Positions 9,607 through 59,541 of a DNA stretch of 64,000 bases are shown piece after piece. Below the pieces are notes generated by a model, which saw only the letters and a program-made list of their open reading frames with translations, did no database searches and was not told the DNA's origin. Every line of letters begins with the position of its first letter. Position 1 is the stretch's first letter. The stretch is from the NCBI GenBank assembly GCA_003151155.1, contig PLWX01000081.1, positions 1-64,000 of the forward strand. The letters are read 5' to 3'. A program made the position numbers and the translations under genes. Source of the stretch: Acidobacteriaceae bacterium (lineage in GTDB: Bacteria; Acidobacteriota; Terriglobia; Terriglobales; Acidobacteriaceae).

Positions 9607-10707
9607 ATGCCAGTTCCTGTATCGCAAATGTGGACGGTTGCGTCCTACGTCGTCGGCCAGAAGCTTAAGCGCCGCAAGCATTTCCCTGTCGTTCTCATGC
9701 TTGAGCCGCTGATGCGCTGTAACCTCGCCTGCGCCGGCTGCGGCAAGATCCAGTACCCCGGCCACATTCTCAAAAAGGAACTCACGCCCGAGCAGTGCTT
9801 CCAGGCGGTCGATGAGTGCGGCGCCCCGATGGTCTCCATCCCCGGTGGCGAGCCCCTCATGCACCCCCGTATCGTCGAGATCGTCGAAGGTCTCCTCGCG
9901 CGCAAGAAGTACATTTATCTCTGCACGAATGGCCTGCTGCTGAAAGAGAAGCTGCACCTCTTCAAGCCCAGCAAGTATTTTTCCTTCGTCGTTCACATGG
10001 ACGGCCTCAAGGAGCACCACGATTTCGCCGTCTGTCGCGAAGGCACGTACGACAAGGCGATGGAAGCCATTGAACTTGCGTTGGCAAAAGGATTCCGCGT
10101 TACGACTAACACCACGCTCTTCGAAGGCGCCGATCCGCAGAGCGTTCGTGAGTTCTTTGACACCATGATGGATGTCGGCGTCGAGGGCATGATGCTCTCC
10201 CCCGGATACACCTACGACAAGGCGCCCGACCAGGAGCACTTCCTCAGCAAGAAGAAGACGCGCAACCTGTTCCGCCAGATTTTGAGCAATCGTCACGAAA
10301 AGTGGAAGTTCAACATGAGTCCGCTCTTCCTCGAGTACCTCATGGGCCGTCGCGAATACAAATGCACCCCGTGGGGCATGCCGACTTACAACATCTTCGG
10401 CTGGCAAAAACCTTGCTACCTCATGCAGGACGGCTACGCGGACACATTTGAAGAACTGATCAACGATACGAAGTGGGAGCGCTACGGCACCGAGAGTGGC
10501 AATCCGAAGTGCGCGAACTGCATGGTGCATAGCGGCTATGAAGCCAGCGCCGTGAATCACACCTTCGGATCGCTTGCGGGATTATTCGCCACCGCGAAGG
10601 CCACACTCTTTGGCCGCTACAAAGATCCGGATGTCGATATCGACTCCAAGCCGAAACCGAAACGCCCGTCGGCCACGCTTGTCCAAATCGGCAACACCGA
10701 GTCGTAA
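9607..10707 (+). CDS. hpnH: Adenosyl-hopene transferase HpnH (radical SAM)
   Basis: Radical SAM enzyme that adds a 5'-deoxyadenosyl group to diploptene, the first step in making C35 bacteriohopanepolyols. The [4Fe-4S] motif is Cys38-x3-Cys42-x2-Cys45 in MRCNLACAGC, followed by the SAM-contacting SIPGGEP. 366 residues matches HpnH well, including the C-terminal Cys cluster (ECKxxxC-like: PKCANCMVHSGYE). Starts at ATG 9607. The small gene at 10710 follows after two bases and is surely co-transcribed. No squalene-hopene cyclase is in the window. Product acts at the cytoplasmic membrane. Confidence 0.95.
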   Translation: MPVPVSQMWTVASYVVGQKLKRRKHFPVVLMLEPLMRCNLACAGCGKIQYPGHILKKELTPEQCFQAVDECGAPMVSIPGGEPLMHPRIVEIVEGLLARKKYIYLCTNGLLLKEKLHLFKPSKYFSFVVHMDGLKEHHDFAVCREGTYDKAMEAIELALAKGFRVTTNTTLFEGADPQSVREFFDTMMDVGVEGMMLSPGYTYDKAPDQEHFLSKKKTRNLFRQILSNRHEKWKFNMSPLFLEYLMGRREYKCTPWGMPTYNIFGWQKPCYLMQDGYADTFEELINDTKWERYGTESGNPKCANCMVHSGYEASAVNHTFGSLAGLFATAKATLFGRYKDPDVDIDSKPKPKRPSATLVQIGNTES

Positions 10708-41442: not shown

Positions 41443-42570
41443 CTAGTCGCAAGCCACGCCGGTTTCTTCCCGCTGTACTTTTCGCTTCGGCTGATAGACG
41501 CAGCAAGGTTCTTCCGCGAAGGGACTGCCGCTGACGGCAAAGGCGCGGGCGCGTGAACCGCCGCAGACCTCGCGATATTCGCAATCACCGCACTTTCCTT
41601 TTAGGTTTTTGCTATCACGCAAGGCGCGAAACAGCGGGGACTCGCGATAGATCTTCGAGAGCGATTGCTGACGAATGTTGCCAGCGGAGAGGGGAAGAAA
41701 TCCGCTGGGAAAAACCTCGCCGCGATGCGAGATAAAAACGAAACCCTTGCCGTCATTGATGCCCATCGCACGGCCAATGCCGTCGTCGGTCATCGATGGC
41801 ATGAGTTGCGGCAACTTCTCGCCCGGCAGTGCGTGTTGCCGGCGAGCTTCTGTGCGACGCTGTAACAAGTAGCGGCGGTAATGTTGCGCCTCCGTACTCT
41901 TGATGTCGAACAGGGCTCGTTGCGCGGTTTGGTGGAGGATCGCGAAGACCTGCTCAAACTCCTCGGCCGAGAGCAGCCCAATGTCCTGGCCGCGCCCGGT
42001 AGGCACGAGAAAGAAAACGCTCCATAGGGCGATGTCGAGCGTCGCCAGCAATGCGATCACGTCATAAATCTGGTGAAAATTGTGGCGCGTGATCGTGGTG
42101 TTGATCTGCACCGGCAAGCCGATCTCGCGAGCCCAGCGCACGGCGTCCATCGTCCATTGGAAGGAGCCGGGAACGCGCCGGAAAGCATCGTGAATCTCTG
42201 CTGTCGGACCATCGAGGCTCACGGCCAGCCGCGCCAGCCCAGCCTGGTGCAGTTTTACGATCGCTTCGCGTGTCAGCAGCGGCGTGGCGCTTGGGGTAAG
42301 AGAGATGCGCACCTTGCGGTCGGAGGCATACCGCACAATCTCAAGGATGTCGGGCCGCTTCAGGGGATCGCCCCCAGTCAACACGAAGACAGGGACGGCC
42401 ATTTCTGCGATCTCATCGATGAGCCTCTTAGCTTCTTGCGTCGTCAACTCATCGCTGCTGCGCGCGGGTTGCGCGCAAGCCCGGCAGTGCAGACACGCCA
42501 GATCGCAGGCTTGTGTAGTCTCCCAGATTGCGATAAATGGCTTCTCGTCAAAATCGATATGCGGCATCAT
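41443..42570 (-). CDS. Radical SAM/SPASM protein, TIGR04053-like
   Basis: About 375 residues from the ATGATG at 42570, with GAGAGGTG seven bases upstream; the open frame continues to 42897 but without family resemblance. Radical SAM core with Cys22-x3-Cys26-x2-Cys29 in ETTQACDLACLHCRACAQ and FVLTGGDPLKRPDI. The C-terminal SPASM domain has several Cys (KCGDCEYREVCGGSRARAFA, EEPCCVY), binding extra [4Fe-4S] clusters. The pattern resembles TIGR04053 (BA_1875-type) proteins of unknown substrate. Transcribed divergently from a Cys-rich protein. Confidence 0.85.
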   Translation of the reverse strand: MMPHIDFDEKPFIAIWETTQACDLACLHCRACAQPARSSDELTTQEAKRLIDEIAEMAVPVFVLTGGDPLKRPDILEIVRYASDRKVRISLTPSATPLLTREAIVKLHQAGLARLAVSLDGPTAEIHDAFRRVPGSFQWTMDAVRWAREIGLPVQINTTITRHNFHQIYDVIALLATLDIALWSVFFLVPTGRGQDIGLLSAEEFEQVFAILHQTAQRALFDIKSTEAQHYRRYLLQRRTEARRQHALPGEKLPQLMPSMTDDGIGRAMGINDGKGFVFISHRGEVFPSGFLPLSAGNIRQQSLSKIYRESPLFRALRDSKNLKGKCGDCEYREVCGGSRARAFAVSGSPFAEEPCCVYQPKRKVQREETGVACD

Positions 42571-42789
42571 CGGATGCACCTCTCGGTTGGCACTAAGTTG
42601 CCAGAAGCCATGAGGCTGGACTGTGACTGGAGTCACAGGCGGCGAAGATTTTCGCATGCCACGCAGGCGGGATGGACAAATTGCGTCACAGGCCATTGTG
42701 AGATGAATCACCGCAGGCTGGGTCGTAATCAGACGAGAATTTCTCTGCCTCGCCACTCCGTTCTTACCGGAAGAGAAAAAGGCCCTGCT

Positions 42790-43152
42790 ATGTCCGACGA
42801 CCCTCGTGATGTCATTGAAGTACTTCGCTGCGAACTGAGTTTCCTGGAACAGGGCGGCTATCGCGCGCAAAAGAATCCGCTTGTGGCGGTATCGCATTTC
42901 CAGGATTCCCTATCGTGCATCAATTACGGACTGCCGCGGCGGCCGCATGGGTGCAACAAATGCCTGCTCTGGGACTTTGTGCCGGAGCAATACCGGCGAG
43001 AGGATGTGCCTTGTCACTTCATTCCGCTGACCCCGACGGGCCTGACCATGGAGAGCCGGCAAAGCGAAGCAGAGCTGGAACAAAACCTCAAGATTTGGCT
43101 GCGCGACACGATCGCCAAGCTGGAGCAGCAGCGCGCAAACGGCAAACTTTAG
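42790..43152 (+). CDS. Cys-rich small protein divergent from radical SAM gene
   Basis: 120 residues, not in a family I can name. Cysteines at 14, 43, 55, 58 and 75 (CINYG, HGCNKCLLWDF, PCHFIPL) with His36 and His76 suggest a Zn or Fe-S site. Starts at ATG 42790 with AAAAAGG upstream; the longer frame to 42073 is antisense to the radical SAM gene. A helical Glu/Lys-rich tail follows. The arrangement with the radical SAM gene and rubrerythrin suggests a metal or redox role. Confidence 0.75.
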   Translation: MSDDPRDVIEVLRCELSFLEQGGYRAQKNPLVAVSHFQDSLSCINYGLPRRPHGCNKCLLWDFVPEQYRREDVPCHFIPLTPTGLTMESRQSEAELEQNLKIWLRDTIAKLEQQRANGKL

Positions 43153-53304: not shown

Positions 53305-54285
53305 TCACGCCTGCTCCCGGCCAAAGTGCAGTCGCAGGATCTTTCGCGTCAGCCCAGTGAGCGCTAGTTGATGCGCCTCCTGGTGCGTCACCCATTTGCC
53401 TACCGGCTTGCGGGCTCTCCCTCTCAGGACAAAGACTGCGTAGTCGGTGTCTGTAATGGAGTGGCGCAGGCGGTGGACGGGCTCAACTTCTTTTTGCGCA
53501 GGGATCGAGGGAAGTTCCCACATCTCCGCCATCAGCGAATGATCGACCGCACGTTGCACCAGCAGCACGCGATCTTCCTGCGCGTGGATCGCATACCAGA
53601 GTTCCGCACGCTTGCGCTTGGCCTGGGGCTGGGGCTCAGTAGCCCCACGCGTCTTGCACCATCCATGTAACGGGCAGAGCAGGCACTGCGGCTGCTTCGG
53701 CAGGCAAACCGTTGCACCAAGTTCCATCATCGCCTGGTTCCAATCCCCGGGGTGCTGAGCTGCCAGAAGTTCATTGGCGCGATCCCATAGTGGCTCGCCC
53801 TCGTGACGCTCGCCGCATAAGCGCTCGATCACCCGCTCAACGTTGCCATCGACCACCGCAACCGCTTCGTTAAAGGCGATACTGGCGATGGCGGCGCTGG
53901 TGTAGCGTCCAATGCCGGGGAGCTGTCGCCATCCTGCCTGATTGGTTGGAAATTTCCCGTGCAAGTGGTGCATCACCACTTGGGACGCCTGGTGCAGGGA
54001 TCGCGCCCGGCGGTAATACCCGAGGCCACTCCACACCGTCAAAACATCGTCAAGGTGCGCCGCGGCAAGGGCCTTGACGGTGGGAAAACGTTGCAGAAAT
54101 TGTTCGTATTTCTCTACTACCGCCGCCACCCGCGTTTGCTGCAGCATGATTTCCGAAACCCAGATCGCGTAGGGATCGCGGGTGTGCCGCCAAGGCAAGT
54201 CACGGTGCGAATGGCGGTACCAGCCCTGCAAGGCCTTCTGCATGGCTTTGTGACCGGAAGTCGGCGCCATCGCGGGGGAGCTCAT
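53305..54285 (-). CDS. mutY: A/G-specific adenine DNA glycosylase MutY
   Basis: 326 residues, removes A mispaired with 8-oxoG. HhH core: LPWRHTRDPYAIWVSEIMLQ (catalytic Glu), LPGIGRYTSAAIASIAF, VDGNVERVIERL (catalytic Asp), and the [4Fe-4S] cluster Cys-x6-Cys-x2-Cys-x5-Cys in CLPKQPQCLLCPLHGWC. A NUDIX-like C-terminal domain (about 230-326) is short but present (WELPSIP). Upstream of the thioredoxin-fold gene. Confidence 0.96.
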   Translation of the reverse strand: MSSPAMAPTSGHKAMQKALQGWYRHSHRDLPWRHTRDPYAIWVSEIMLQQTRVAAVVEKYEQFLQRFPTVKALAAAHLDDVLTVWSGLGYYRRARSLHQASQVVMHHLHGKFPTNQAGWRQLPGIGRYTSAAIASIAFNEAVAVVDGNVERVIERLCGERHEGEPLWDRANELLAAQHPGDWNQAMMELGATVCLPKQPQCLLCPLHGWCKTRGATEPQPQAKRKRAELWYAIHAQEDRVLLVQRAVDHSLMAEMWELPSIPAQKEVEPVHRLRHSITDTDYAVFVLRGRARKPVGKWVTHQEAHQLALTGLTRKILRLHFGREQA

Positions 54286-54313: not shown

Positions 54314-54766
54314 TTACGGCGCGCTGGGCATCGACGTATGGGCAGTGATCACCGCTCCCTTCCCCACCTGCTGCCACACCGACATCATGCGCTGCGGCTT
54401 ATCGGGAACCGGCTGGCCATTGAAGGTGCCGTGAACGGTGATCGTATAAGTGACGATCAAATCGGGGCCGTTGCTCTGCGTCTGCATGTCGCCAAGCGAG
54501 TAATCGGTGAGATTGAGTTGGCGAACGTGCTCCATTGTCTGCTGCTTGTTGCGAACGGCATCAGGGGCTTCGGTGACTACGGTATCGGAGAGATGCGCCT
54601 CAACGTCTCGCCAGTTCTTGGCCTTGACCGAATCCCAGAAGAGGCGTTCGTACTGTTCGCCGCCGGTCGCGCTGTTCCACGCAGGCTTGGACTTCTCTCC
54701 GTACACCGTACAACCGGTTGCCGAAATGAGGGCGAATGCAAGCGCAACGCAGAAGAAAGATCGCAT
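54314..54766 (-). CDS. NTF2-like putative lipoprotein
   Basis: 150 residues, lipobox signal MRSFFCVALAFALISATGC (Cys19 the lipidated residue). The mature part looks like a SnoaL/DUF4440-type cone-shaped fold (YERLFWDSVKAKNWRDVEAHLSD, VTYTITVHGTF). Such domains are often ligand-binding or inactive. Same strand as mutY but 28 bases upstream of it; possibly co-transcribed. Confidence 0.8.
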   Translation of the reverse strand: MRSFFCVALAFALISATGCTVYGEKSKPAWNSATGGEQYERLFWDSVKAKNWRDVEAHLSDTVVTEAPDAVRNKQQTMEHVRQLNLTDYSLGDMQTQSNGPDLIVTYTITVHGTFNGQPVPDKPQRMMSVWQQVGKGAVITAHTSMPSAP

Positions 54767-54846: not shown

Positions 54847-56517
54847 TCAGCCGATTGCCACGAGGTCGGCTTCGTTCTGCTTCGCTTTGGCGCGCACATC
54901 CACGGTGCAGCGCATCGGCTCGAGGGTATCGACAGGGACGGCGAACTCGCGTTCGATCTTCTCGCGGAATTCGGGCCCGGAATTGTAAGTACAGAATGGG
55001 TAGAGCTTGCCATCGGGCGCGGTGTAATGGATTACGCAGCGTTTCACGCGCTCGATATCGTAGTTGTAGAGATCCTGGAAGTGCATGCCGGCGACGAGCA
55101 GGGTGCGATAGGTATATGTGCCGTCTTTTCCGTCCCTGCCGAGTTTCTTATCGGTCATGCCCTGCAGAGTCTGCAGGAACTTGGTGAAGGTCAGGCCACG
55201 CGGCGCACGATCTTCGTGGAAGTGCTTTTTCAACGAATTCCAAACCCGCATCTTGGTATACAGCTTAAATATCGCCCTACTGCTTTTGCGCGACAGCTCG
55301 TCCATATCTTGGAGCATCGCACCCACATCGACAAACCGCGTGATCGGCACCGCCTGCCTGGTCTCGTCGTCAACAAATAGGTAGGTTCCGAGCGAACAGT
55401 GCGGATGCGAGGAGATGGTCGGCACCCCAACCCCGCGCAGCGCTGAGGTGAGTTTCGAGAACGGCGTAACGCAAGCCAGCGGGAAGAAATCGTTGTAGGC
55501 ATCGGTGATGCCCGTCTGATCGCTGACGCACTTTGCCAGATCGGCGAGAGTGAAACGCTTCTGTTCGAGTTCGCGGCGATTGATGCGGCCGGTGAAAGCT
55601 ACCGGCTGAAAGCTGATGCCGCTGACGCAGTCAATATTCTCGATCGCCACTCGTACGATATCGCCGATCTGGTGGTCGTTGAGACCCCTGACGATCGTGG
55701 GAACAAAAATGATCTTCATGCCTGTCTTGCGGCAGTTATCGATCGTCTTCATCTTGATCTCGAGCAGTGGGACGCCACGTACCCGGCGATAAATGTCGTC
55801 ATCCACGCCGTCGAATTGCAGGTACAGAGTATTCAGCCCGGCCTCTTTGCACTCCCGAGCGAAGTCGAGGTTCGAAAGTTCGATCCCGTTCGTCGCCGCT
55901 TGAATGTGGCTGAATCCCATCCCACGCGCCATCCGCAGCACGTCAAGGAAGCGCGGATAGACGGTCGGTTCGCCGCCGGAAAACTGCACGCAGCGCCCAT
56001 CGACAGGACGCTCGTCGCGTAGCGTCTGCAACATGCCGCGCACCTGCTCGAAACTCGGTTCGTAAACGTATCCGCTGGTATTTGCATTGGCAAAGCAAAC
56101 CGGGCAGGTCAGGTTGCAACGATTGGTCAGGTCGAGATTGGCAAGCGCCGTATGCGAGGTGTGCAGCGTGCACAAGCCGCAATCGGTTGGGCAGTTCGCG
56201 CCCTGCTCGTTATTCGGATTGGAATTGCCCGCATTGTCGCCGAAATTCCACTCTTCCATCTTGTGATACAGCTTGACGTCGCTGAACACCACATCGCGAA
56301 ATTCGCCGTGCTCTTCGCAGGTCTTCGCCATCCAGACTTTACCGTTCAGCTCAAACTCACGAGCCGGCAGCACCTTGCGGCACTCGGGACAGAGTGACAC
56401 CGTATCCTTCGGCAGTCCCTTCACTAAACGCTTGATGGACGCGCCGGTAAGCGTGAATTCAGGCTGAAGAATTTTGAAAGTCGGACGCTTGACGGGAGAG
56501 AACGTGGTCGTGCTCAC
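54847..56517 (-). CDS. Radical SAM enzyme, tetraether/membrane-spanning lipid synthase-like
   Basis: About 556 residues from GTG 56517, with GAGGT nine bases upstream; another GTG at 56598 has no such site. Domains in order: a rubredoxin-like start (CPEC at 43-46, then KTCEEHG at 66-71), an extra cluster motif CPTDCGLC (109-116), the radical SAM CxxxCxxC (134-141, DLTNRCNLTCPVCFAN), FSGGEP, and a long C-terminal domain with more Cys. This pattern matches Tes/MJ0619-type proteins that join lipid tails to make tetraether lipids, and the bacterial homologues proposed to make membrane-spanning iso-diabolic acid in acidobacteria. Exact substrate unproven. Neighbours give no hint. Confidence 0.78.
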   Translation of the reverse strand: MSTTTFSPVKRPTFKILQPEFTLTGASIKRLVKGLPKDTVSLCPECRKVLPAREFELNGKVWMAKTCEEHGEFRDVVFSDVKLYHKMEEWNFGDNAGNSNPNNEQGANCPTDCGLCTLHTSHTALANLDLTNRCNLTCPVCFANANTSGYVYEPSFEQVRGMLQTLRDERPVDGRCVQFSGGEPTVYPRFLDVLRMARGMGFSHIQAATNGIELSNLDFARECKEAGLNTLYLQFDGVDDDIYRRVRGVPLLEIKMKTIDNCRKTGMKIIFVPTIVRGLNDHQIGDIVRVAIENIDCVSGISFQPVAFTGRINRRELEQKRFTLADLAKCVSDQTGITDAYNDFFPLACVTPFSKLTSALRGVGVPTISSHPHCSLGTYLFVDDETRQAVPITRFVDVGAMLQDMDELSRKSSRAIFKLYTKMRVWNSLKKHFHEDRAPRGLTFTKFLQTLQGMTDKKLGRDGKDGTYTYRTLLVAGMHFQDLYNYDIERVKRCVIHYTAPDGKLYPFCTYNSGPEFREKIEREFAVPVDTLEPMRCTVDVRAKAKQNEADLVAIG

Positions 56518-56718
56518 AGCAGCTTTACCTCGCGGTTTCGCAACCAGTGACCTTGGAACGGATTGAGAGCTGCCCTTATTGTGCGCGTTTTCAGGCACTT
56601 GGGGATGTGAGGTGCGCCACCGCCGCGTGTGAAGCCGGATTTCAGCGAATGGCGGAAACGCGCATCCAGCGGCGCTCGGCAGAGGATGGGTGGGAAGCCT
56701 CTGAGCCCGGAGTTGGAC

Positions 56719-57885: not shown

Positions 57886-59541
57886 TTACTGCACCGCTCC
57901 GCCCGCCTTTTGCCAGGCTGCGAAACCGTCATGATAGACCTTGACCTCTTTGAAGCCGCGACTGGCGAGCAGTCCCGCGGCAGCACGACTCGCGGCGCAG
58001 ACATCGCCTGCGGCCAGCCCACTCTCGTAGACGACGACTGGCTTGTCCTTCGGCAGAGTGGAAACGCCATCGCTGATCTTATTCAGCGGTAGATTCACCG
58101 CCCCCGGGATATGCGACTTCGCAAAGTCTTTGGGCTGCCGGATATCGACGAACACCGCTCCCTTTTTCAGCATCTGCTGCGCTGCGGTGGTTGCGATCTC
58201 ATTTTTCTGCGGGCCCTTCGGCGCATTCTCATCGCAATCGCCGGATGACGCCTGGCCCATGAAAAGTGGATTCGGTGGGGCCGGCGCGAGTCCCGGCACA
58301 ATCGAGGTTGCCGCGGAGGCGGTCGTCACCGCTTGCTGCTTGGACTCAGGGGCGTTCGCCGGAACTGCCACCGGCTTCGGTGCTGCTTTAACTGCGGGGG
58401 GTGACGCCGTTTCAGCCTTGGGAGCGGGTTTTGCGTCCGCCGCTGGCTGGGGCGCTTGCGCTCCGCTCACCATCGCGGTGAACTCCTGCATGTTCAGCCC
58501 GCCCACATGCTGCTGCTGGTTGACATAGAAGGTCGGCGTGGCGTTTACATTAACAGCCTTCCCATCGGCGATGTCCTGCTGCACGCGTTGCGCTTTCGCC
58601 CCACTGTCGAGACAGGCGTTGAACTTGGCGGTATCGAGACCAATATCCTGCGCGTAGTACTTCAACTGCACCACCGCGAGTTCGCCATACGCCTGGTAGA
58701 GGCGATCGTGCATCTGCCAGAACTTTCCCTGATCATCGGCGCATTCTGCGGCTTCAGCGGCTTTCTCGGCGAATTGATGGAATTTCGCCAATGGGAACTC
58801 GTGGAAGACGAAACGCACCTGCTTTGGAAAGCGCTTCCGGATTTCCTGGTTGGTAGCCTCGGCAATGATGCACGAAGGACATTGGAAATCCCCGAACTCC
58901 ACCACCGTGACCGGCGCATTCGCAGGTCCGATGGTATGACTATCCGGTTTCACAAGACGAGTGAGATCCGGCGGAGCTGCGTTGGCGGGAGCTTCGAGCT
59001 GCTTCTTCACTTCGGCGGCCGAATGATGCGAGAGCCAAGCAAATGCCGGCACCGCAACTACCAGTGCAATCACGAACAACAACACATTCTGCAGCGCGAC
59101 ACGATGAGTGGCCTTGGGCCCATCCACCGCTGGCTTGCTGATTTCGATGGCAAGCAAAATGAACACAAACGCGATGGCAATCTGCTGCGCGATACACCAC
59201 GCGCACCAGGCGTGAATGCTGAAAGCTTCAAGGCTAGTGAAATACAGCGAGATCACCACGCCGGCCGCGGAAATTCCAAACGCCAGCTTGCGCATCAGCC
59301 CACTCAAGTGCGGAGCGACGAACGGCTCAACCAGCAGCAGCACAACCAGCGCGGCATACATCGCGACGCCGAAGGCCGGGGTTGGAATGCCTCCCCAGAA
59401 CGCGAAGCGGCTGGCGCGCACTTCGTCGCAGCCGGTGCCCAGGCAGACAAGCGGATGCGTAGGTGAGGTATAGACCCACCACAGGTAAGCCGAATCGAAC
59501 AGGCCGAAGAGGCTGAAGACAAGAGCAAGAGTCTTGCGCAT
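57886..59541 (-). CDS. VKOR-DsbA-rhodanese fusion, disulfide-forming membrane protein
   Basis: 551 residues in three parts. (1) VKOR domain, about 1-150, four to five membrane segments, loop Cys33/Cys38 and active Cys113-x2-Cys116 in HAWCAWCIAQQ. (2) DsbA-like thioredoxin domain, about 195-360, with Cys221-x2-Cys224 in FQCPSCIIAE and the cis-Pro loop NATPTFYV. (3) after a Pro/Ala-rich linker, a rhodanese domain (about 450-551) whose usual active-site loop is altered to VVVYESGLAAGDVCAASRAA, with Glu in place of the normal Cys and a Cys ten residues later. It should oxidise periplasmic thiols, handing electrons to quinone; the rhodanese role is unknown. Confidence 0.9.
   Translation of the reverse strand: MRKTLALVFSLFGLFDSAYLWWVYTSPTHPLVCLGTGCDEVRASRFAFWGGIPTPAFGVAMYAALVVLLLVEPFVAPHLSGLMRKLAFGISAAGVVISLYFTSLEAFSIHAWCAWCIAQQIAIAFVFILLAIEISKPAVDGPKATHRVALQNVLLFVIALVVAVPAFAWLSHHSAAEVKKQLEAPANAAPPDLTRLVKPDSHTIGPANAPVTVVEFGDFQCPSCIIAEATNQEIRKRFPKQVRFVFHEFPLAKFHQFAEKAAEAAECADDQGKFWQMHDRLYQAYGELAVVQLKYYAQDIGLDTAKFNACLDSGAKAQRVQQDIADGKAVNVNATPTFYVNQQQHVGGLNMQEFTAMVSGAQAPQPAADAKPAPKAETASPPAVKAAPKPVAVPANAPESKQQAVTTASAATSIVPGLAPAPPNPLFMGQASSGDCDENAPKGPQKNEIATTAAQQMLKKGAVFVDIRQPKDFAKSHIPGAVNLPLNKISDGVSTLPKDKPVVVYESGLAAGDVCAASRAAAGLLASRGFKEVKVYHDGFAAWQKAGGAVQ

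Follow-up and report, generated by a model that had tools for sequence, protein, structure and literature searches.

A radical SAM gene in the window, a stretch of 64,000 nucleotides from an Acidobacteriaceae bacterium, was found to encode a full-length member of the Tes (tetraether synthase) family. This membership is well supported, because the family model, the metal ligands, the fold and the phylogeny all agree. The protein, hereafter TES1, probably joins the tail ends of two iso-C15 glycerolipids to form a membrane-spanning chain of the iso-diabolic acid type. An earlier note on this DNA had assigned the gene to the Tes/MJ0619 type from the order of its Cys motifs, and this assignment was upheld: MJ0619 has the same order, and the match to the family model lies far past chance.

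Results

Family assignment of TES1

The single open frame encodes 583 amino acids from the GTG at 56598 and 556 amino acids from an internal GTG at 56517; residue numbers below follow the 556-residue form. Homology to the family begins at about residue 35 of this form. A start at or slightly ahead of 56517 would fit the alignment (561 columns, 84% identity) to the orthologue in G420, a genome of the same genus. The features discussed are listed in Table 1.

Table 1 Features of the window, and the tes-ger gene set of genus g130.
Feature	Position	Strand	Basis
tes-type radical SAM gene (TES1), candidate for lipid tail joining, Tes/MJ0619 family	54847..56598	-	NF045702, 7TOL match, AlphaFold model
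Rubredoxin-like iron site, CPEC ... TCEEH (Cx2C-x20-Cx2H)	56308..56391	-	Alignment to MJ0619 C9, C12, C33, H36
N-terminal [4Fe-4S] site, CPTDCGLC and His three residues on	56161..56193	-	Alignment to MJ0619 C73, C77, C80, H83
Radical SAM motif, CNLTCPVCF	56092..56118	-	Alignment to MJ0619 C98, C102, C105; PF04055
C-terminal [4Fe-4S] site	54991..55398	-	C374, C494, C509, M478 aligned to MJ0619 C338, C455, C470, M439
DUF4440 predicted lipoprotein, directly downstream of TES1	54314..54766	-	PF14534, E 3e-7
mutY-like adenine glycosylase, conserved flank	53305..54285	-	PF00730, E 1e-20
hpnH, adenosyl-hopene transferase	9607-10707	+	TIGR03470, 531 bits (cut-off 225)
tes-ger gene set, genus g130	L045:4451-10682; L140:66-6151	same strand throughout	PF01869 x2 and DUF2229

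TES1 matched the NCBIfam model NF045702 'tetraether lipid synthase Tes' with 580.5 bits (cut-off 450; E 2.4e-174). Residues 39-528 were aligned to profile positions 2-485 of 486, a full-length match above the curated cut-off. The closest solved structure by sequence was that of MJ0619 (PDB 7TOL; E 1.2e-141), with 43.6% identity across 489 residues, and PF04055 was matched at the radical SAM motif (E 5e-25). TES1 also matched PF23545 'HMPTM zinc ribbon' and, in part, the TrsS model NF045646 (356.8 bits; best stretch 2-310 of 441). These two matches would speak for a non-lipid radical SAM function, either the old 6-hydroxymethylpterin methylase annotation of MJ0619 or that of TrsS. However, the cut-off of NF045702 was exceeded by 130 bits, whereas that of TrsS (490) was missed by 133. 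Furthermore, according to the MJ0619 structure paper (PMC9433317), the pterin role could not be corroborated and the structure argues against it. We therefore regard a non-lipid function as highly improbable.

Metal sites and conserved residues

Ligand numbers were taken from the same structure paper (PMC9433317) and transferred to TES1 by alignment. The Cys ligands, for which the earlier note had proposed this comparison, were all present: every mapped ligand of the four metal sites was kept in TES1 and in 27 of 27 acidobacterial TES1 sequences. The rubredoxin motif, described in that paper as Cx2C-x20-Cx2H, comprised CPEC at residues 43-46 and TCEEHG with C67 and H70. The N-terminal cluster ligands were C109, C113 and C116 with H119, a set that was absent from the paralogue TES2 described below, and the radical SAM cysteines were C134, C138 and C141. 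The C-terminal cluster set, which the earlier note had not listed, was also found and was invariant across the TES1 and archaeal Tes rows. The structure paper names 'a conserved histidine' and Met439 as ligands in MJ0619; H83 and the three C-terminal Cys were assigned as putative ligands from their conservation. Since the M439A variant of MJ0619 remains active, the labile-ligand Met is a mark of the family and not proof of catalysis.

Ninety columns were conserved in at least 95% of archaeal Tes sequences. TES1 kept 83 of these, as against 87 for MJ0619 and 66 for TES2. The seven columns altered in TES1 include I467Y and N266S, both of which are common across the acidobacterial clade. One SAM contact, S271, is replaced by Ala in TES1, as it is in 13 of 51 archaeal rows.

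Structure model

An AlphaFold model of TES1 was built on an alignment with 31 relatives (mean pLDDT 83, pTM 0.85). A Foldseek search with this model returned 7TOM and 7TOL at the top (E 1.6e-55; TM 0.90 on target). When the model was compared with 7TOL by VIA-align, a Z of 50.7 and an rmsd of 2.2 Å across 477 residues were obtained; the next fold was MoaA, with a Z of 21.9. TES1 is accordingly modelled with the overall GDGT-MAS fold.

Phylogeny

Trees were built from named archaeal relatives and acidobacterial sequences, and two trees were concordant on the main points. The main acidobacterial TES1 clade grouped with archaeal Tes (support 100/99), and the TES2 sequences formed a separate clade of their own (100/100). 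TES1 thus fell beside archaeal Tes and not among unrelated radical SAM families, the outcome that the earlier note had named as counting against it. The closest archaeal sequences were those of Methanomassiliicoccales (50-51% identity). Archaea and a small number of other bacteria, but no acidobacteria, were found in the scan for named relatives, probably because of the peptide patterns used; a plasmid search returned only distant homologues of TES1 (<33% identity).

The nearest row in the tree was TES1 of G420, a complete genome in one contig of 5,650,368 bases, which is probably that of Candidatus Koribacter versatilis Ellin345. TES1 is probably the orthologue, in a sister species, of the Koribacter versatilis Tes homologue.

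Acidobacterial proteins were also found elsewhere in the trees. Two of them (L041:9281-10828 in G264 and L042:9200-10732 in G296) were nested in methanogen Tes beside MJ0619. This position points to a second, separate transfer, and these genes were apparently acquired from archaea apart from the main acidobacterial clade. Two further Tes-type proteins, L054 (family f5) and L053, were divergent, with long branches that fell outside the main Tes clade.

Proposed reaction of TES1

From homology and genomic context, we infer the activity, substrate and product of TES1 and the following mechanism. As described for MJ0619 (PMC9433317), SAM would be cleaved at the radical SAM cluster, and the 5'-deoxyadenosyl radical would abstract hydrogen from the methyl group that ends the first tail. 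Through a C-S bond, that carbon would then stay attached to the C-terminal [4Fe-4S] cluster. With a second SAM, a radical would be made on the partner tail; this tail would take over the attached carbon to form a C(sp3)-C(sp3) bond. Coupling of two iso-C15 tails through one terminal methyl each would yield a 13,16-dimethyl-C28 diacid, which is the known iso-diabolic acid. The ends of iso-C15 tails and of phytanyl tails are alike (PMC8941075).

The closeness of TES1 to archaeal Tes in sequence could also mean that its substrate is an archaeal-type isoprenoid lipid or another hydrophobic molecule instead of bacterial iso-lipids. However, archaeol is not a known product of Acidobacteria. In genus g130, moreover, TES1 is adjoined by Ger, a bacterial ester-lipid reductase. 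The lipid pockets of MJ0619 likewise take bacterial phospholipids: they bind bacterial phosphatidic acid, and the head group is not specifically recognised (PMC9433317). An isoprenoid or other such hydrophobic substrate is thus very unlikely, and coupling of bacterial iso-lipids remains the preferred reading.

A second Tes-like enzyme, TES2

TES2 is an acidobacterial Tes-like paralogue without the N-terminal FeS cluster. The copy in the genome of the window (L002:2-1687) is truncated by the end of contig C140 and matched NF045702 with 272 bits; its full-length relatives have about 700 residues, score about 310-350 bits and share 32-35% identity with TES1. TES2 retains the rubredoxin site, with a longer insert than in TES1, as well as the radical SAM and C-terminal sites including M439, whereas all four N-terminal ligands are gone (four sequences).

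The two genes also differ in distribution, that of TES2 being far wider. Across 396 Acidobacteriota genomes, NF045702 gave a match at E 1e-40 in 218 and exceeded the Tes cut-off in 39. Among 60 genomes of the same family as the window, 50 had a match, most of them to TES2, and eight had TES1. Iso-diabolic acid has been reported from acidobacterial subdivisions 1, 3, 4 and 6, with high abundance in 17 cultures belonging to subdivisions 1 and 3 (PMC13274423). Because a widespread gene accounts better for a widespread lipid, TES2 would be the better candidate for the phylum-wide iso-diabolic acid than the patchy TES1, and TES1, present in so few of the family genomes, cannot be its general maker. 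Of the earlier suggestion, the type of family is upheld; as the source of the common iso-diabolic acid of the phylum, the distribution favours the paralogue.

A published comparison bears on the same point. The single Tes homologue of Edaphobacter aggregans, which produces brGDGTs, is 32% identical to the archaeal query, as against 42% for Koribacter (PMC8941075). Since the former figure is below that of Koribacter, the E. aggregans homologue would fit TES2 rather than TES1.

Shared locus of TES1 and TES2

The usual gene order in the family, with all genes pointing the same way, was TES2 - (TES1) - DUF4440 lipoprotein - mutY - peroxiredoxin; some loci have pilin-like genes interposed. The order from TES1 to peroxiredoxin is in place in the genome of the window, where TES2 lies on a different contig. 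The DUF4440 gene was found within 2.5 kb after TES1 in eight of ten family genomes with TES1; where TES1 was absent, it directly followed TES2 in five loci of five genomes (L155-L159). A mutY homologue occurred in the same stretch of eight other family loci. Furthermore, TES2 and TES1 were at most 11 kb apart on one strand in six genomes, and side by side in one locus (L036). This shared locus suggests that TES1 and TES2 take part in one process. The mutY and peroxiredoxin genes are probably bystanders, with no lipid role implied.

Ger and the linkage of the product

Ger, the ester-to-ether bond reductase, is homologous to PlsA and has two PF01869 activation domains (PMC13274423). In genus g130 (G203, locus L045; G330, locus L140), the gene that comes immediately after TES1, in the same orientation, was of the Ger type. 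This gene contains two PF01869 (BcrAD_BadFG) stretches and DUF2229, the domains having been tested on L045, to which L140 is 84% identical. Next to it comes another conserved gene, which encodes about 475 residues.

The occurrence of Ger was then counted in 80 genomes, which had been chosen before Ger was looked at; Ger was accepted at 350 bits or more, or as one clear contig-edge fragment. The class with TES1 (n=30) excludes the divergent family f5 and the two archaeal-nested cases (G264 and G296), in none of which Ger was found when sought. Ger was present in 23 of the 30 genomes with TES1, in 3 of 32 with TES2 only and in none of 10 with neither. By genus, the counts were 13 of 16 with TES1 versus 3 of 26 (Fisher p 9e-6, without correction for relatedness). 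In a second set, the 60 genomes of the same family as the window, drawn from 60 genera, Ger was detected in two of eight with TES1 versus 3 of 52 without it (p ~0.13), which weakened the idea of a pairing throughout the phylum. Outside this family, TES1 and Ger are strongly paired; inside it the pairing is weak, and in the genus of the window it is absent.

Indeed, the draft genome of the window (93% complete) gave no match to a Ger protein at E 0.001, in a search without a control genome, or to PF09989 at 1e-8, and no Ger was detected in the complete genome of the same genus, G420, although TES1 is there. Because no Ger was detectable in either genome, the product in the organism of the window is likely to be an ester-linked tetraester rather than a brGDGT. 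This prediction fits Koribacter versatilis, which makes iso-diabolic acid tetraesters according to work cited in PMC13274423.

These findings bear on a refinement of the best explanation, in which the general synthesis of iso-diabolic acid falls to TES2 and TES1 has a more specialised product, arising for instance from a second, ring-closing coupling or from ether-lipid coupling where Ger exists. The predominance of TES2 in the family genomes, its retained radical SAM and C-terminal sites beside the lost N-terminal ligands, the shared locus, the identity of the E. aggregans homologue and the association of TES1 with Ger outside the family all agree with such a division. On the other hand, the coupling role of TES2 is putative, from sequence, and the genomes surveyed are not those with lipid records. 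We consider the chances of this refinement to be evenly balanced. A specific form of the proposal, which we put forward tentatively and consider somewhat less likely than not, is that both proteins are tail-joining enzymes of the Tes superfamily that differ in their cofactor sets and are frequently encoded in a single locus, TES2 giving ester iso-diabolic acid and TES1, with Ger in several lineages (adjacent in g130), giving brGDGTs.

Other genes of the window

The earlier note had also pointed to hpnH in the same window as a second radical SAM gene acting on membrane lipids. The gene is real and lies 44 kb from TES1, but there was no evidence of a shared pathway, and a linkage of HpnH to TES1 was set aside, as nothing was found joining the two. 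A third radical SAM gene (41443-42897, minus strand) encodes a TIGR04053 SPASM protein (507 bits) with no sign of a lipid role; its second-best match was the heme b synthase AhbD, under the cut-off, and it is a possible heme-pathway relative. The gene at 57886-59541 encodes a single protein of 551 residues in which VKOR and DsbA/thioredoxin domains are combined with a rhodanese domain at the C-terminus.

Discussion

TES1 shares with the Tes/GDGT-MAS proteins MJ0619 (7TOL, 7TOM) and MA_1486 full-length homology, the four metal sites, the labile Met and the fold. It differs in its bacterial host, which has iso-branched fatty acid lipids, in a longer N-terminus and in the seven altered columns. 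A role of bacterial Tes in making membrane-spanning lipids, which the earlier note had raised, is an idea already in print: Zeng 2022 (PMC8941075) singled out the Koribacter and Solibacter homologues, with that of K. versatilis as the best bacterial Tes homologue (42% identity), and proposed a role in brGDGT formation, and Halamka 2022 (PMC10087280) proposed the same role for the Solibacter usitatus homologue. The hypothesis for TES1 is therefore not new. Relative to the Koribacter versatilis and Solibacter usitatus proteins, TES1 is probably a direct orthologue in another species, under the same published hypothesis. As late as 2025, bacterial Tes activity was called unconfirmed (PMC11868695), and no test of any bacterial Tes was found in the literature searched.

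The bacterial Mss of Thermotoga and Clostridia, like Tes, carries out tail-to-tail coupling, and a Tes catalytic architecture is reported for it (PMC13274423). A tested Mss came from Thermotoga maritima (PMC11604127). As NF045702 gave no match at E 1e-40 in the T. maritima control genome, Mss and the two acidobacterial proteins do not seem to be closely homologous, as judged from this genome search.

Four points appear to be new, as no report of them was found in the literature searched: TES2 as a paralogue, the locus that it shares with TES1, the tes-ger gene set of g130 and the absence of detectable Ger here. The brGDGTs serve as thermometers of past climate, and their enzymes have not been demonstrated in acidobacteria, their known cultured source. 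TES1, from a soil acidobacterium, is a clean candidate in which no mapped catalytic ligand is missing. Taken together, the paralogue, the locus and the uneven pairing with Ger lead to separate, testable predictions of which gene makes which lipid. If the proposed assignment of ester iso-diabolic acid to TES2 and of brGDGTs to TES1 with Ger is true, a genome with both TES1 and Ger would mark a brGDGT producer, and one with TES1 but no Ger, like that of the present organism, a tetraester producer.
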